DNA from: an uncultured Pelagibacteraceae bacterium
GTDB lineage: Bacteria > Pseudomonadota > Alphaproteobacteria > Pelagibacterales > Pelagibacteraceae
DNA length: 64,000 nt
Assembly: GCA_902518835.1 (NCBI GenBank)
Contig: CABYHH010000004.1
Coordinates: forward strand, 1-64,000
Direction of reading: 5' to 3'
The notes beneath the pieces were generated by a model. The model worked only from the letters and a program-made list of their open reading frames with translations. It was not told the DNA's origin and ran no database searches. The position numbers and the translations under genes are program-made. Within the stretch, counting starts at the first letter, position 1. Each line of letters starts with the position of its first letter. Positions 37,535-45,531 of the stretch are shown here, piece after piece.

Positions 37535-39607
37535 ATGTCAGAATTTTTTTTAGAGCTATTTAGCGAAGAAATTCCTGCAGGTCTTCAAAAAAATTTACGT
37601 GAGAAACTTTTAGATCAATTTCAAAAATTTTTTTTAGAAAAATCTATAAAATCAAAAAAAAGTTTTTCGCTATCAACACCTAATAGATTGATCATAGTAT
37701 TTGATGGTTTGGATAAACAAATAAGAATATTATCTAAAGAAATAAGAGGGCCAAAAATAAATGCTCCTGATCAGGCCTTGGAGGGTTTTTTAAGGTCAAA
37801 CAAAATAGAAAAAAAAAATCTATTTAGAAAAAAAACTGAAAAAGGAGAGTTTTATTATTATAAAACAACATCTAAATTATTAAAAACAAATCATTTATTA
37901 ATGGAGTCTGTTCCAAGATTGCTTAAAAACTTTCAATGGAAAAAGTCTATGACATGGGGTTCATATGATCTTAATTGGGGAAGACCATTAAAATCAATTT
38001 TGTCAGTATTTGATAAGAAGGTAGTTAATTTTAAATTCCATCACTTAACTTCTTCAAATTCAACTTATATTGACAAAGATTTTGAAGAAAAAAAGAGGTT
38101 TTTCAAAGATTTCAGATCATATGAAAAATATTTTAAAAAACAAGGAATACTCATAAATCAGGAAAAAAGGAAGAAGTTAATACAAAGAGAATTTTCAAAA
38201 ATAATAAGTAAAAGAAAATTAATAATTCAAGATAATCCATTATTGATAGATGAGGTAGTAGATTTAGTTGACAATCCTAATGTTTTAATTTGTAGTTTTG
38301 ACAAAAAATTCTTACTTATCCCAAAAGAAATTTTAATCTTAACGATGCAATCTCATCAAAAATATTTTCCCACATTTAATAATAAAGGGGAAATTACAAA
38401 TGAATTTTTGATTGTTGCAAACAAAAAAGATCAAAAAGGATTGATAAAAATTGGCAATGAAAGAGTTATAGAGGCTAGGCTTAGTGACGCAGAATTTTTC
38501 TGGAATAAGGATAAAACTCAAAATCTAGTCAAAAAAGTATCTGAGTTAAAAATGATGAACTTTTTTAAGGGACTTGGAACTTATTTTGATAAAGTTCAGC
38601 GAATGAGAAAATTAGGTGGATTAATTTCTGACGAATTATTAATTAGTAAAGAAAAAGTAGAGTTATCAGCGTCAATTTGTAAAACTGATTTAACTTCAGA
38701 TTTAGTTGGAGAGTTTCCTGAGCTTCAGGGTGTTTTGGGTGGATATTTCTCAATACATCAAGGATTTGATAAAGATATTTCATTAGCAATAACTGAACAA
38801 TATCTGCCTATTGGTTTAGACTCTAAAACTCCAAAAAAACCTTTCAGTTTTGCATTATCTCTTACAGATAAAATTGATACTTTAGTTGGTTTTTTTGGAA
38901 TAAATGAAAAACCCACAAGTTCAAAAGACCCATTTGCATTAAGAAGAATTGCACTTGGAATTATAAGAACAATAATAGAAAATAAGAAAAATTTAAAAGT
39001 AAATGATTTATTAAGTTACTCTTCGAATCTATACCGAGATCAAGGACATATTTTTACTAACAATAATACACAAAAAGAATTACATAATTTTTTAAAAGAT
39101 AGATTTATTTATTATATGAAAGAGAAACAAATTCGTTTTGATATTATAGATGCTACGATTTCAACATTTTCACTTAATAAACTGTTTTCATCTTTTGATA
39201 AAGCTAATGAGCTAAATAAGATCATCAACAATCAAAGTGGGCTTGATATTATTTCAAGTTATAAAAGAGCAGCAAATATATTAGATAGCGAAATAAAAAA
39301 AAGTAAAATTGAAATAAGGAATACAACTGATCCCGGTATTTTTAAAACCGACTTTGAAAAAAACTTATATAATAAGATTAATGAGATTAAGAAGTATTAT
39401 TCTAGTATAAATAATGATGAAAATTTTGAAAAATCATTATCAATATTAGCAAGTACGAAAAAAGAGATTTTTGATTTTTTTGATAATGTTAAAGTTAATG
39501 AAGAAAATGAAACTTTAAGAAAAAACAGATTGGAACTTATAAATATGTTATGTAAAACCTTTCATAATTTTATAAATTTTCAGTTACTAAAAGCAAATAA
39601 TGAATAA
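37535..39607 (+). CDS. glyS: Glycyl-tRNA synthetase beta subunit
   Basis: MSEFFLELFSEEIPAGLQ; TMQSHQKYFPTFNNKG; start at internal ATG 37535. Confidence 0.95.
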   Translation: MSEFFLELFSEEIPAGLQKNLREKLLDQFQKFFLEKSIKSKKSFSLSTPNRLIIVFDGLDKQIRILSKEIRGPKINAPDQALEGFLRSNKIEKKNLFRKKTEKGEFYYYKTTSKLLKTNHLLMESVPRLLKNFQWKKSMTWGSYDLNWGRPLKSILSVFDKKVVNFKFHHLTSSNSTYIDKDFEEKKRFFKDFRSYEKYFKKQGILINQEKRKKLIQREFSKIISKRKLIIQDNPLLIDEVVDLVDNPNVLICSFDKKFLLIPKEILILTMQSHQKYFPTFNNKGEITNEFLIVANKKDQKGLIKIGNERVIEARLSDAEFFWNKDKTQNLVKKVSELKMMNFFKGLGTYFDKVQRMRKLGGLISDELLISKEKVELSASICKTDLTSDLVGEFPELQGVLGGYFSIHQGFDKDISLAITEQYLPIGLDSKTPKKPFSFALSLTDKIDTLVGFFGINEKPTSSKDPFALRRIALGIIRTIIENKKNLKVNDLLSYSSNLYRDQGHIFTNNNTQKELHNFLKDRFIYYMKEKQIRFDIIDATISTFSLNKLFSSFDKANELNKIINNQSGLDIISSYKRAANILDSEIKKSKIEIRNTTDPGIFKTDFEKNLYNKINEIKKYYSSINNDENFEKSLSILASTKKEIFDFFDNVKVNEENETLRKNRLELINMLCKTFHNFINFQLLKANNE

Positions 39608-42266
39608 ATTAGTTTTAAATTTTAAGTCGAAAGACTCAAAAAGATTAAAAAATCCTAAAAATTTTTTAGGTGGAAAAGGTGCTAATTTAGCTGAAATGGG
39701 AAGAATGGGTCTTCCTGTGCCACCTGGATTTACAATTTCAACTAAAGTTTGTGAAATTTTTTTTAAAGATAAAAAAAAATTAAATTCTAAATTGATCAGC
39801 CAAATTAAGAAAGAGCTAAAAGTTATTGAAAAAGATGTATCCAAAAAATTTGGGGATTTTAAAAACCCACTTTTGCTGTCTGTTAGATCCGGAGCTAGAG
39901 TGTCTATGCCAGGTATGATGGATACAATCCTTAATCTTGGGCTAAACGACTGTACTGTTATTGGCTTAGCAAAAAAAACTTTAAATGGTAGATTTGCTAA
40001 AGATAGTTACAGGAGATTTATACAAATGTACAGCAACGTTGTGTTGGGTATAGAAAATTATCATTTTGAGGAACTAATTGAAAACTATAAATTAACAAAA
40101 GGTGTTTTGTTAGATACAGATTTAGATGAGGATGATTGGAGTGGCTTAATAAATGATTTTAAAAAAGTTGTAAAAGAAAAAACTAAAAAAGAATTTCCTC
40201 AAGATGTTAATCAACAACTATTTGGGGCGATAAGTGCAGTATTTCTTTCTTGGGAAAGTAATAGAGCAAAAGTTTATAGAAAATTAAATAAAATTCCATC
40301 TGAGTGGGGAACTGCTGTGAATGTACAATCTATGGTATTTGGAAACATGGGTAATGATTGCGCAACTGGTGTTGTTTTTACAAGAAATCCCTCCGATGGG
40401 TCAAATGATATTTATGGTGAATATTTAATTAATGCTCAAGGGGAAGATGTTGTAGCTGGAACTAGAACTCCTCAGCACATAACTAAAAAATCAAAAAAAG
40501 AAGCCAAGGTTAAAGAACTTTCAATGGAAGAGTTTATGCCAAAAGTTTATGAGGAATTATTCAAGATTTTAAGAAAATTAGAAAAGCATTATAGAGATAT
40601 GCAGGATGTTGAGTTTACAGTTGAAAATAAAAAACTTTGGATATTACAAACTCGATCGGGTAAACGAACGTCAAAATCAGCTGTTAGAATTGCGGTTGAA
40701 ATGGTAAAAAAAAAGCTGATTAATAAAAATGAAGCTATTTTAAGAATAGATCCTAATTCTTTAGATACTTTACTACACCCTACTTTGGATGAGAAAAGTT
40801 CTTTTGAGGTGATTGCAAATGGACTACCAGCATCTCCAGGCGCTGCTAGTGGTAAAGTAGTTTTTACATCTGAAGATGCGGAAAGGCTAAACAATATGAT
40901 GCAGGACACAATTTTAGTGAGAGTAGAAACTTCCCCTGAAGATATTCAAGGTATGCATGCAGCTAAGGGAATTTTAACAGCACGAGGTGGTATGACTAGT
41001 CATGCTGCAGTAGTAGCAAGAGGAATGGGAAGACCTTGTGTATCTGGTTCTAGCGAGATTGATATCAATCATGAGAAAAAAATTTTCAAAACATCCTCAG
41101 TAGAGGTAAAGGAAGGTGATATAATTACAATTGATGGTTCAACAGGAAGAATAATTTTAGGTAATGTTCCAACAATAAAACCAGAAATTTCTGGTGACTT
41201 TTCGAAATTAATGGGATGGGCGGATAATATAAGAAAGTTAGAAGTTCGAACAAACTCTGAAACCCCATTAGATACTAAAACTGCAAGAGATTTTGGAGCT
41301 GAAGGAATAGGTCTATGTAGAACAGAGCATATGTTTTTTGATGAAGAAAGAATTTTATCTGTAAGAGAGATGATACTATCGAAAACACAAGAAGATAGAG
41401 CTAAAGCACTACAAAAACTTTTACCTCATCAAAAAAAGGATTTTATGGAAATATTTACTATCATGAGTGGTCTACCTGTAAATGTAAGATTACTCGATCC
41501 ACCATTACATGAATTTTTACCTAAATCTAAAAAAGAAATCTTTGAAGTGGCAAATGTTATTAGTGCTGACGTAAAAGAGGTGGAGTCTAGAATTGAAGAG
41601 CTTCATGAGCAAAATCCTATGTTAGGTCACAGAGGCTGTAGACTTGGTATTTCATTTCCAGAAATTTACGAAATGCAATGTCGTGCCATATTTGAAGCAT
41701 TATCAGAACTTCAAAAGAAAAAGCAAAAAACAGCCTTCCCAGAAATCATGATACCACTCGTTTCTACTGAAGCTGAAATTAAAATAATGAAAGATTTAGT
41801 AATTCGTGTCGCAAGACAAGTAGAAAAAGAAAATAAAATTAAAGTAAAATACTTAGTTGGTACAATGATTGAATTACCCAGGGCCGCAATTAAAGCGAAA
41901 GATATAGCTAAACATGCTGAATTTTTTAGTTTTGGAACAAATGATTTAACTCAAACAACATTTGGAATTAGTCGAGACGATAGTGGAAAATTTTTGAATG
42001 ATTATATAGATAATAAGATTTTTTCAATTGATCCCTTTATTTCAATTGATGAAGGTGTTGAGGATCTGATTGAAATAGCTGTTCAGCAAGGAAAAAAACA
42101 GAATAAAAAAATTAAATTAGGTATATGTGGTGAGCATGGAGGAGATCCAAAAAGTATTTTTTTCTGCTCTAGAGCTGGATTAAATTATGTATCTTGTTCA
42201 CCTTATAGAGTTCCGATAGCTCGATTAGCTTCAGCCCAGGCTGAACTACAAAAAAAAAAAAATTAA
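39600..42266 (+). CDS. ppdK: Pyruvate, phosphate dikinase
   Basis: LGGKGANLAEMGRMGLPVPPGFTIST, GGMTSHAAVVARGMGRPCVSG, GICGEHGGDPKSIFFCSRAGLNYVSCSPYRVPIARLA. Confidence 0.97.
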   Translation: MNKLVLNFKSKDSKRLKNPKNFLGGKGANLAEMGRMGLPVPPGFTISTKVCEIFFKDKKKLNSKLISQIKKELKVIEKDVSKKFGDFKNPLLLSVRSGARVSMPGMMDTILNLGLNDCTVIGLAKKTLNGRFAKDSYRRFIQMYSNVVLGIENYHFEELIENYKLTKGVLLDTDLDEDDWSGLINDFKKVVKEKTKKEFPQDVNQQLFGAISAVFLSWESNRAKVYRKLNKIPSEWGTAVNVQSMVFGNMGNDCATGVVFTRNPSDGSNDIYGEYLINAQGEDVVAGTRTPQHITKKSKKEAKVKELSMEEFMPKVYEELFKILRKLEKHYRDMQDVEFTVENKKLWILQTRSGKRTSKSAVRIAVEMVKKKLINKNEAILRIDPNSLDTLLHPTLDEKSSFEVIANGLPASPGAASGKVVFTSEDAERLNNMMQDTILVRVETSPEDIQGMHAAKGILTARGGMTSHAAVVARGMGRPCVSGSSEIDINHEKKIFKTSSVEVKEGDIITIDGSTGRIILGNVPTIKPEISGDFSKLMGWADNIRKLEVRTNSETPLDTKTARDFGAEGIGLCRTEHMFFDEERILSVREMILSKTQEDRAKALQKLLPHQKKDFMEIFTIMSGLPVNVRLLDPPLHEFLPKSKKEIFEVANVISADVKEVESRIEELHEQNPMLGHRGCRLGISFPEIYEMQCRAIFEALSELQKKKQKTAFPEIMIPLVSTEAEIKIMKDLVIRVARQVEKENKIKVKYLVGTMIELPRAAIKAKDIAKHAEFFSFGTNDLTQTTFGISRDDSGKFLNDYIDNKIFSIDPFISIDEGVEDLIEIAVQQGKKQNKKIKLGICGEHGGDPKSIFFCSRAGLNYVSCSPYRVPIARLASAQAELQKKKN

Positions 42267-42348: not shown

Positions 42349-42376
42349 AAAAAAGGGGCGTTCTGTTGCCAGGTGC
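42349..42376. repeat. Direct repeat 1 (distal copy of tmRNA 3'-end motif; att-like)
   Basis: ttaaaaaaggggcgttctgttgccaggtgc; 22-bp GGGGCGTTCTGTTGCCAGGTGC identical to copy 3 at the tmRNA 3' end. Confidence 0.9.
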
Positions 42377-42383
42377 TATGATC

Positions 42384-42647
42384 TTACTTATATTTTATTT
42401 TATAAATTAGTATGAATAGGGATAATATTAACGTAACTGCGTTTGCTAAAATTATTGGTAAATCAGATATAGTAATTCCATAAATCAACCATGAAACTAC
42501 TCCTATAGTAAAGATAATAAACATATATAAAGAAATATCTCTTGTACTCTTTGTTCTCCAAACTTTTAATGCTTGAGGAAAAAAAGCAACAGTCGTACAA
42601 AATGCTGCTAAGAAACCAATATATTTTAATACAAAATTTAAAATCAT
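42384..42647 (-). CDS. SemiSWEET/PQ-loop transporter
   Basis: 87 aa, 3 TM; GFLAAFCTTVAFFPQALKVWRTKSTRDISLYMFIIFTIGVVSWLIYGI (PQ motif and SWEET-family pattern). Confidence 0.9.
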   Translation of the reverse strand: MILNFVLKYIGFLAAFCTTVAFFPQALKVWRTKSTRDISLYMFIIFTIGVVSWLIYGITISDLPIILANAVTLILSLFILIYKIKYK

Positions 42648-42655
42648 AATTTTTT

Positions 42656-42676
42656 AGGGCGTTCTGTTGCCCGGCA
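42656..42676. repeat. Direct repeat 2 (internal, degenerate copy)
   Basis: agggcgttctgttgcccggca; 15-bp core GGGCGTTCTGTTGCC shared with copies 1 and 3. Confidence 0.88.
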
Positions 42677-42685
42677 TTAGATTAG

Positions 42686-42713
42686 AAAATAGCATATTTG
42701 CTTACTTAATCAA
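42686..42713 (-). promoter_or_regulatory. Possible sigma-70-like promoter for the SemiSWEET gene
   Basis: Minus strand TTGATT-N16-TATTTT, predicted start near repeat 2; AT-rich background makes chance matches likely. Confidence 0.35.
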
Positions 42714-42716
42714 ATT

Positions 42717-42789
42717 ACTTCGTTGAAAACTTCGTTGAGAGAATTAGGAAATTTTTCCTTACTTTGTCCTTTTATATTCACTTCGTTGA
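42717..42789. repeat. Three copies of ACTTCGTTGA in the noncoding tail between the two cassette genes
   Basis: Exact decamer at 42717-42726, 42729-42738 and 42780-42789. Confidence 0.8.
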
Positions 42790-42802: not shown

Positions 42803-44275
42803 TTAACCTAGTTTAATTATTTCATTCATTTTTTGGTTAATATTTTCATCATACTTAATTCTAAAGAGTTTAATTTTGTTTTTTTTTGCCCAATCATCTT
42901 TAATTTTGTCTTTTAATATCCTTTCATCAAGACCCTTTTTACCACCCCAAAAATCAATTGCCATAAAGTGTTGTTCACCATCATATTCTATAAGTATCTT
43001 TTTTTTTGTTAAATAAAAATCAAAAGGCATCGGAATTTTATATTTGCAAGAACTAAATCTTTTTTCAGTTTCAAAACTTATTTTATTTTTATCTAGAAAA
43101 TGATAAATTTTCTTGTTTCCCCATGACTTAGCACATAGTGGACAACCATGTACTTTTTTACCAATCAAATCACTAGGTACTGCTTTCCACATATATCCAC
43201 ATTTGTGCTTTACTAAAATTCTATCTCTGTGAGTTTTATATTTATCTATAGGAATTATTTCTCCAAAATGTACCTTTTTTAATTCACTATTGAATTCTTT
43301 ATAATCTTTTCTATTAGCACAACTATGACACCCATTTCTTAAAACATTTCTAGGTTCAGATTTATATTTTTTACCACATTTTAAGCATTTAAATTTAATC
43401 CTAGTTCTAGACATTTTATAATTTTCTAAAGGTATGATATTTCCATTATGTTCGTCTTTAAGTCGTTTTTTGAAAACTTTATTCGTCATTGTTTTTTTTA
43501 AGACTGAACATCTTCTGCATCCTTGTTTTCTTTTTATTAGATGATTGGGGGTTGTTAACCAAACATTTCCACATGTACATTGGACTTTTACTTTTAAAGT
43601 TTTATTCTTATATTTTGATAATAAAATGATTCTATCACTGTGAACATCTTTAAGTATTTCTTTAAACATTTCCTCTGATATAGGAATTTTTCCTGCACAG
43701 TGGACGCAACCAACCCCTCCCAAATGAGAACCTGGTCTTTGCATAAAAATATTTTTACATTTTTTACATATAATTTTTACTTTTGTATCAGTTGTGCGGT
43801 ATTTAACTTTTGAGTAGTTAAATCTATTTTTGTGAACTATGGTTGCTTTTTTAACGAAATCTTTTGTGTTCCAAACCTCTCCTTTATTACATTTTTTACA
43901 ACCCTGACCTTTTTGATGTTTTGATGGTTTTTGTTTAAAAGTACCATGAATAGGACAAATAATTTTTACAAAGTCATGGATGCTTTTAAATTCGACTAAA
44001 GAGTAATTGTAATGATTTCCATGATAAATTTTTGAGTCTTTAACAAATTGAGATTTTGATTTTCTTTGTCTCTCTATATTACATTGTCTACATCCACTAC
44101 CCTCAAGATGATGTGATGCCCTTAGTTTAAAAGCGCCGTGTTTTTTGCAAATAATATTTATTTGTTCTCTACTCCCTCTATAAACAGTCTTGGAATAATT
44201 AAATTTATTTTTGTGAATTTTTTTTGCCTTTTTAATCCAATTTTCAGAAGAGTATTTTAAATTTAAAGAATTCAT
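42803..44275 (-). CDS. Putative zinc-module DNA-binding protein with C-terminal Vsr/PD-(D/E)XK-like (homing) endonuclease domain
   Basis: Six tandem modules of roughly 50-60 aa with paired C-x-C/H motifs (e.g. HKNRFNYSKVKYRTTDTKVKIICKKC...HLGGVGCVHC), then FDFYLTKKKILIEYDGEQHF...DKIKDDWAKKNKIKLFRIKYDE. Confidence 0.75.
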   Translation of the reverse strand: MNSLNLKYSSENWIKKAKKIHKNKFNYSKTVYRGSREQINIICKKHGAFKLRASHHLEGSGCRQCNIERQRKSKSQFVKDSKIYHGNHYNYSLVEFKSIHDFVKIICPIHGTFKQKPSKHQKGQGCKKCNKGEVWNTKDFVKKATIVHKNRFNYSKVKYRTTDTKVKIICKKCKNIFMQRPGSHLGGVGCVHCAGKIPISEEMFKEILKDVHSDRIILLSKYKNKTLKVKVQCTCGNVWLTTPNHLIKRKQGCRRCSVLKKTMTNKVFKKRLKDEHNGNIIPLENYKMSRTRIKFKCLKCGKKYKSEPRNVLRNGCHSCANRKDYKEFNSELKKVHFGEIIPIDKYKTHRDRILVKHKCGYMWKAVPSDLIGKKVHGCPLCAKSWGNKKIYHFLDKNKISFETEKRFSSCKYKIPMPFDFYLTKKKILIEYDGEQHFMAIDFWGGKKGLDERILKDKIKDDWAKKNKIKLFRIKYDENINQKMNEIIKLG

Positions 44276-44278
44276 TTA

Positions 44279-44303
44279 AAAAGGGGCGTTCTGTTGCCAG
44301 GTG
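44279..44303. repeat. Direct repeat 3 (tmRNA-proximal copy, overlaps tmRNA coding-piece 3' end)
   Basis: aaaaaggggcgttctgttgccaggtgcc; matches repeat 1 over 22 bp plus A tract. Confidence 0.9.
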
Positions 44304-44307
44304 CCCC
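44283..44307 (-). terminator. Stem-loop plus T tract at the tmRNA 3' end (terminator or pseudoknot element; also the repeat)
   Basis: Minus strand GGGGC-AC-CTG-GCAA-CAG-AAC-GCCCC-TTTTT. Confidence 0.6.
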
Positions 44308-44449
44308 AAACCCCGTCTACTTAATTAACAAAGTTAATTATGCAGCAAGTGCGTAACTTTCGTTAGCAATTATAAATTAGCCCGTTACGGTGGAACAATC
44401 CCGAACGAAAGAATAGCTTTTAGTCACCCGTCGAATCTAGTTCACCCCC
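44283..44449 (-). ncRNA. ssrA: tmRNA coding piece of a permuted two-piece tmRNA; tag ANESYALAA, tag ORF 44367..44338
   Basis: Minus strand 5' GGGGGTGAACTAGATTCGACGGGTG tmRNA signature; GCT AAC GAA AGT TAC GCA CTT GCT GCA TAA tag reading frame; TTAATTAACTTTGTTAATTA hairpin at the stop. 3' boundary is approximate. Confidence 0.9.
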
Positions 44450-44461
44450 ATAAGTTGTAAA

Positions 44462-44541
44462 TGGTGGAGGTGGTGGGTACTGCCCCCACGTCCGCAATGG
44501 TTATTTCGAAATTCGTTTATCGTCGTAGTTGGCAAGCCAAC
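44462..44541 (-). ncRNA. ssrA: tmRNA acceptor piece (5' boundary approximate)
   Basis: Minus strand ...GCGGACGTGGGGGCAGTACCCACCACCTCCACCA; T-stem GTGGG/CCCAC; 3' CACCTCC pairs with the coding-piece 5' GGGGGTG across all 7 positions (one G-U). Confidence 0.88.
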
Positions 44542-44547
44542 AGTATT

Positions 44548-44575
44548 AATATAAAAGCAATCCTTAGAGATTCAA
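44548..44575 (-). promoter_or_regulatory. Candidate tmRNA promoter
   Basis: Minus strand TTGAAT (44575-44570) - 16 nt - TATATT (44553-44548), immediately upstream of the acceptor piece. Confidence 0.55.
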
Positions 44576-44583
44576 TAAAATTC

Positions 44584-45531
44584 ATGAAATTAACTAAAGA
44601 ACAATCAGAACAGATTAAAAATCAGCAATCTCAACAAAATTCAACCAAAAGAGTTACTGTCCCAGAGCTTGAAAAAGTTCTTTATGAAGCGATACCAGCA
44701 CTTGATCATGGTTTTGTAAGAGTAGTTGATTATATGGGTGACGATACATCAATAGTACAGTCTGCTAGAGTATCATATGGAAAAGGTACAAAACAAGTTT
44801 CAACAGACTCAGGCTTAATAAAATATTTAATGCGTCATTGGCATAGTACTCCATTTGAAATGTGTGAAATTAAATATCATGTAAAACTTCCAATATTTAT
44901 TGCACGCCAATGGATAAGACATCGAACTGCAAATGTTAACGAGTACTCTGCGAGATATTCAATTTTAGATAAAGAATTTTATTTGCCATCAACCAATAAT
45001 CTAGCTGCACAATCTACTAGTAATAGACAAGGAAGAGGTGAAATTTTAGAAGGTGAGCAAGCTAAAGATGTTTTAGAACTTTTAAAGAATGATGCTGAGA
45101 GAACATATGCTAATTATGAAACAATGTTAAATGAAAAATATGATGGTTCGACAATAAACGAGGGTAAAAAAGGTCTGGCGAGAGAACTGGCGAGAATGAA
45201 TTTAACTTTAAATACTTATACTCAATGGTATTGGAAAACAGACTTATTAAATTTAATGAATTTTTTGAGGTTAAGAGCGGATCGTCATGCACAATATGAA
45301 ATAAGGGTCTATGCAGACATAATGCTTGATACTTTAAAAAGATGGGTCCCAATTACTTATGATGCATTTATGGATTATAGAGTTGGAGGTACGGAAGTTT
45401 CCTCTAAGGGAAAAATTTTAATACAGAAGTTGATTGATGGGAAAAATATTTCATTAGATGAATCTGGTCTTTCAAAAAGAGAATGGAACGAGTTGATGCT
45501 CGCCTTTGAATTAAAAGACAAGATTATTTGA
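44584..45531 (+). CDS. thyX: FAD-dependent thymidylate synthase
   Basis: [22 protein letters not shown] (ThyX motif RHRxxSxNEYSxR-like), [12 protein letters not shown]; start at ATG 44584, because the upstream part of the ORF overlaps tmRNA. Confidence 0.94.

Follow-up and report, generated by a model that had tools for sequence, protein, structure and literature searches.

A gene for a six-module nuclease lies directly behind the tmRNA gene in a 64,000-nucleotide stretch (the window, below) of a contig from an uncultured Pelagibacteraceae bacterium, and its position raises the question of whether the nuclease moves the DNA segment in which it lies or is itself carried as cargo. An initial annotation of the window favored the first possibility, proposing that the modular array recognizes a long site, plausibly the tmRNA 3' end, and that the cassette is thereby self-spreading with no need of an integrase.

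The tmRNA gene is of the permuted (two-piece) alphaproteobacterial type (44280-44579, reverse strand; Rfam, 222 bits) and serves as the anchor of a short array. Its last 21 bp (CACCTGGCAACAGAACGCCCC, 44283-44303, reverse strand) recur as direct copies that split the interval reaching to ppdK, the conserved gene on the far side (39600-42266, forward strand), into two units. The first unit contains the nuclease gene and has as its right border a diverged tail copy (TGCCGGGCAACAGAACGCCCT, 42656-42676, reverse strand), situated in a right-end sequence (42650-42742, reverse strand) that is shared at 87-90% with other cassettes. The second contains a gene for a PQ-loop (SemiSWEET-like) membrane protein (42384-42647, reverse strand) and ends in an exact tail copy (42355-42375, reverse strand). 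These two copies bear out the earlier description of the nuclease as part of a unit bounded by tmRNA 3'-end repeats. Neither unit encodes an integrase, as judged from the ORF list and from Pfam searches.

The nuclease ORF (42803-44275, reverse strand; 490 amino acids) begins with an ATG positioned 7 nt beyond the final C of the 3' tail of the tmRNA. We note that cargo genes oriented in the tmRNA direction, at 44275 and 42647 in the window and in two other loci (L060 and L104), start only 7-16 nt past a tail, a spacing suggestive of read-through expression from the tmRNA promoter. On the other side of the tmRNA gene, the first ATG of the thyX frame (44461-45531) falls inside the tmRNA gene on the opposite strand, and thyX probably begins in reality about 41 codons further on (MKLTKEQ), near 44584.

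The nuclease protein consists of six Cys/His modules of treble-clef-like character (residues about 9-383; 43127-44251, reverse strand) followed by a Vsr/PD-(D/E)XK-like nuclease domain (residues about 384-490; 42806-43126, reverse strand). The Cys/His sets, with cysteine positions computed and histidine positions read off the sequence, are C43/H46/C62/C65 in module 1, C107/H110/C126/C129 in module 2, C170/C173/C190/C193 in module 3, C233/C235/C253/C256 in module 4, C297/C300/C316/C319 in module 5, and C359/C378/C381, perhaps together with H357, in module 6; they are of the treble-clef or zinc-ribbon type and would be expected to bind zinc. Modules 1-3 form an NYS subtype with the motif (F/Y)NYS, and modules 4-6 an IIPxxYK subtype with the motif II(P/L)xxYK, such that the six consecutive modules, their 3+3 order and both motifs are as first described. 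Pfam identifies DUF4379 in five stretches of the ORF (3.2e-16) and DUF723 above the cutoff (2e-4), with CapR just below it (2.3e-4). The best PHROGs match is PHROG 559, 'HNH endonuclease' (3.5e-97), and PHROG 681, 'endonuclease' (5.3e-57), and PHROG 9084, 'homing endonuclease' (1.8e-23), also match. By their E-values these Pfam and PHROG similarities are far above chance. An NCBIfam search of the protein returned nothing significant, and a sequence search of the PDB gave chance matches only.

Within the nuclease domain, residues D419, E430, D432, G433, H436, D456, K459 and R472 are invariant in an alignment of 49 sequences, and the conserved acidic residues together with the histidine and lysine constitute a predicted active site. 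An AlphaFold2 model of the whole protein made with this alignment (mean pLDDT 90.0, pTM 0.45) has every module as helices around a pair of strands, and the low pTM is as expected if the modules are independent beads. Because a whole-protein Foldseek search is of limited use for such a beads-on-a-string model, the nuclease domain was folded alone (pLDDT 90.8, pTM 0.81), giving a predicted element order of alpha-beta-beta-beta-alpha-beta-alpha. The top Foldseek ranks for this domain are occupied by mitoribosomal proteins, which we take to be RAP-domain proteins, and by E. coli Vsr (PDB 1vsr), the best nuclease match (probability 0.98, TM 0.54/0.49, E 0.11); R2-retrotransposon proteins and TnsA appear at lower ranks, and zero matches for the domain were returned at E 0.001. 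Vsr resembles the nuclease domain in fold but has only 12% identity to it, and is a mismatch-repair nickase that lacks a module array. Structure prediction, at a pLDDT of about 90 for both the whole protein and the nuclease domain, thus points to a Vsr-like fold, and the C-terminal nuclease assignment of the initial annotation gains support at the level of the fold and of the invariant residues, with modest statistics.

Proteins similar to the six-module nuclease are encoded in 950 records of a phage collection, all at less than 60% identity, and the homologues as a whole are mostly from phage genomes, in which relatives are either intron-encoded or free-standing. Relatives are located between the pieces of a split terminase gene in Staphylococcus phage St14.GH, flanked by terminase and portal genes in Javan389, and among the tail genes, between them, in SB28; homing endonuclease genes are typically found in such positions. 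Scanning viral contigs and genome contigs with a pattern of the entire nuclease protein identified no relative, and the nuclease-domain alignment drew 80 viral and 60 cellular loci. No tmRNA is present in the 120 homologue loci that were scanned.

The architecture itself has been published. Endonucleases of phage group II introns combine three to five domains resembling CapR, DUF4379 or DUF723 with an EDxHD/Vsr-like domain at the C-terminus (PMC12350094), and have been termed a large unrecognised outgroup of the EDxHD/Vsr homing endonucleases (PMC12350094, NAR 2025). Like them, the window protein has tandem modules of about 60 amino acids that belong to the same Pfam kinds, and it ends in a Vsr-like nuclease domain of about 100 amino acids. 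It differs in having six modules rather than three to five, and in being chromosomal, behind a tmRNA gene and in a unit bounded by tmRNA-tail repeats; unlike the published endonucleases, it has no recognizable intron around it. We regard it as a new member of this recently described homing-endonuclease-type family, and the earlier view of the modular array and nuclease as being of the homing-endonuclease kind agrees with the DUF4379 and PHROG matches, the predicted fold and the published family.

The closest relative by far is a 491-amino acid protein in a Polynucleobacter MAG, with 49% identity over 488 aligned residues and all six modules arranged in the 3+3 order of the window protein; in a FastTree tree the two proteins are sisters with a support of 0.97. 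A full-length homologue with this order in another bacterial class implies that the two subtypes predate the split of both proteins. The initial annotation had suggested duplication and divergence within the array; the two subtypes are indeed present, whereas local duplication is not upheld. The Polynucleobacter gene is about 520 bp from a tRNA-Ser gene and not at a tmRNA gene. A duplicated tRNA-Ser 3' end was looked for at this locus and not found, and an empty-site search of 101 Polynucleobacter genomes recovered a neighboring hydrolase gene with no syntenic junction.

Arrays of the type seen in the window are found throughout the family. We surveyed up to 10 kb behind the tmRNA gene in 80 further loci from 11 genera, in a sample comprising one genome per species, many of them drafts, with an incomplete survey of cargo. 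Extra tails are present in 38 of these 80 loci, and hence with the window in 39 of 81, at one to seven per locus, the highest number (seven) being in L092 and L111. The 69 tail copies (≤4 mismatches) are all in the tmRNA orientation, with 0.003 expected from base composition, and a backward-read control pattern gave no match in 20 genomes. Natural empty sites also occur, in which the tmRNA tail is separated from ppdK by about 8, 11 or 20 bp. The cassette units range from 225 to 6291 bp, with a median of 997 bp, and hold 119 predicted ORFs in 76 clusters, 93 of them oriented against the tmRNA. Cargo includes restriction-modification genes, methyltransferases, a superoxide dismutase, a carbamoyltransferase, an acyltransferase and many unknowns, and a few right-end sequence families recur among the units.

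We also note that single tail copies occur away from the tmRNA gene (L339-L351), many of them flanked by the 3' ends of convergent genes, and part of the tail pattern might therefore reflect a terminator role or a wider dispersal. The genome to which the window belongs has a weaker tail copy between RNase-HI-like and peroxiredoxin-like genes (G000:C8:3935-3955), and a tail-linked superoxide dismutase gene is found in a tmRNA array (L111) as well as at a second locus (L340).

The six-module nuclease was recovered from a single genome in each of two overlapping samples, of 247 family genomes and 397 order genomes. The other order-level match (G301) is a different protein, with a match of 104 residues and no modules, and there is no tRNA or tmRNA in the 3.3-kb stretch around it. 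DUF4379 proteins in three other family genomes are at sites without a tmRNA tail. One genome (G056; L133:5520-7097) encodes a different DUF4379 protein of 525 amino acids with a Vsr-like segment, located between tRNA-Asn and tRNA-Cys.

The right end of the nuclease unit has a distribution of its own. The sequence of about 90 bp at 42650-42742 is present at 87-90% identity in three loci from two other genera, where the cargo behind it is a methyltransferase gene (L106), a 114-amino acid ORF (L092) or a 110-amino acid ORF (L097), and it recurs with yet another ORF at a non-tmRNA site (L346, in G051). That cassettes with different genes have this right end in common indicates that the nuclease is exchangeable cargo. 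The right end joins a diverged half of the tail (TGCCGGGC) to a host-type other half, the structure that a crossover inside the tail should leave at an attachment site. Gene ends repeated in tandem and in direct orientation are what site-specific recombination usually leaves behind, and are not the usual mark of homing.

These observations bear directly on the proposal that the nuclease is what makes the cassette mobile, cutting an intact tmRNA 3' end so that repair from the occupied allele copies the cassette in without an integrase. Such a role would fit the homing-endonuclease-type architecture, the start of the gene 7 nt behind the tail, and the lack of a recognized integrase among the 25 listed of the 66 Pfam cargo families. 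Nuclease- or restriction-type cargo is moreover encoded in other arrays (L068:1379-3115, L040:1776-2747, L103:8082-9203, L098:8656-9222 and L105:2199-3566, with GIY-YIG in L068, HNH in L103 and L040, and Mrr in L098), raising a possible link between nucleases and the tmRNA-tail site. However, arrays occur family-wide without the nuclease, which is present in one genome; the right end travels with other genes; the Polynucleobacter relative and the other family DUF4379 proteins are not at a tmRNA tail; and homing alone leaves the tandem direct copies of the gene end unexplained. We therefore consider self-spreading by the nuclease quite unlikely, and conclude that it is most probably a homing-endonuclease-like passenger in a tmRNA-anchored array.

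The cargo of neighboring arrays suggests a different role, in which the nuclease is a defence or restriction-like enzyme that cuts invading phage DNA, comparable to the restriction-modification genes of the sister arrays; type I restriction-modification, Mrr, MrcB-HNH and SRA-domain genes are all represented there. We think this unlikely, since the nuclease has no PADLOC match, its unit lacks a methyltransferase or other partner gene, and its homologues are mostly phage-borne. A further alternative is that the unit is a recent and possibly silent arrival, or an assembly join, and thus an isolated insertion without function in the lineage. It is known from one draft genome only (42 contigs, 86% complete), and the start codon of its gene follows the tmRNA end so closely that there is no space for a separate promoter. 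Nonetheless, the full-length frame retains its module and active-site residues, the composition is close to that of the host (27% GC for the unit versus 29.6% for the window), and the unit borders match those of independent genomes; of the readings weighed here this is the one to which we attach least probability.

The reading we favor, and hold to be reasonably probable, is that the window gene encodes a free-standing homing-endonuclease-like protein of the CapR/DUF4379/DUF723 plus EDxHD/Vsr family, carried as cargo in a tmRNA-anchored cassette array. Its basis is the architecture, the homology, the predicted fold, the repeats, the shared right end and the arrays that lack the nuclease. Six zinc-binding-type modules, arranged as beads on a string, would recognize a long DNA site for cleavage by the C-terminal Vsr-like domain, and the homing-type target would be elsewhere, probably in a phage. 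The gene sits immediately after the tmRNA 3' end, within one unit of an array whose units have as their borders direct copies of the final 21-25 bp or so of the tmRNA and exchangeable right ends, and it may be expressed by read-through from the tmRNA. Insertion of units would most likely proceed through site-specific recombination in the tail of the tmRNA gene, catalyzed by an enzyme presumably encoded outside the array. As a counterpoint, the 25 of 66 Pfam cargo families that are listed include no recombinase, and an integrase in some unit could be overlooked.

Where might such an enzyme be encoded? Most of the Pelagibacteraceae-level relatives searched have one tyrosine recombinase, and the sister family mostly has two. 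The genome of the window encodes a tyrosine recombinase on another contig (L292:2671-3576; G000:C1:14170-15075), which scores below the XerC, XerD and integron-integrase cutoffs (about 30 bits versus a cutoff of 265 for the integron-integrase model); it is a candidate either for a trans-acting cassette recombinase or for the sole Xer-like enzyme of the cell. A phage attachment site (attP) was also considered, and an exact tail search of viral contigs yielded only phage tmRNA genes. These genes (L136-L143) are of the permuted type and have a tail identical to that of SAR11-type hosts, such that a phage tmRNA could serve as a recombination partner. Inspection by eye of their neighbors revealed none resembling an integrase or the window nuclease.

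The closest known system to the array is that of the Dehalococcoides ssrA islands, in which tandem units lie behind the tmRNA gene with direct copies of about 20 bp of the ssrA 3' end, a motif not derived from ssrA is found beside the repeat, and many islands encode a serine recombinase module, DsiB/DsiA (PMC3146451). The window array likewise has tmRNA-end direct repeats at its unit borders and an element-specific sequence beside the distal repeat (42650-42742, shared at 87-90%). The Dehalococcoides islands are larger, however, the units here having a median of 1 kb, and in our array no recombinase is recognized and the tmRNA belongs to the permuted class. Integron gene-cassette arrays offer a second comparison, with small exchangeable units, heterogeneous cargo and shared border sequences, but the array here is anchored on a tmRNA gene; the ORF list has no intI beside it in the window. 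A broader interpretation, which we advance tentatively and rate at somewhat under an even chance, is that SAR11-type bacteria possess an integron-like, tmRNA-anchored cassette system with tail sites of about 25 bp, a few end families of 40-90 bp, heterogeneous cargo and a recombinase acting in trans, perhaps the resident tyrosine recombinase, in which homing-type nucleases would be picked up as cargo and may lend drive to the cassettes holding them.

The nuclease unit is a useful marker of interchangeable array cargo, and a six-module chromosomal member with an intact predicted active site extends a little-studied family that possibly binds long DNA sites. The cassette array is more novel than the nuclease it holds. 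Gene gain by such arrays in the streamlined genomes of the SAR11 type is not described in the literature we searched, and the array is present in numerous members of a bacterial group that ranks among the most abundant in the ocean.
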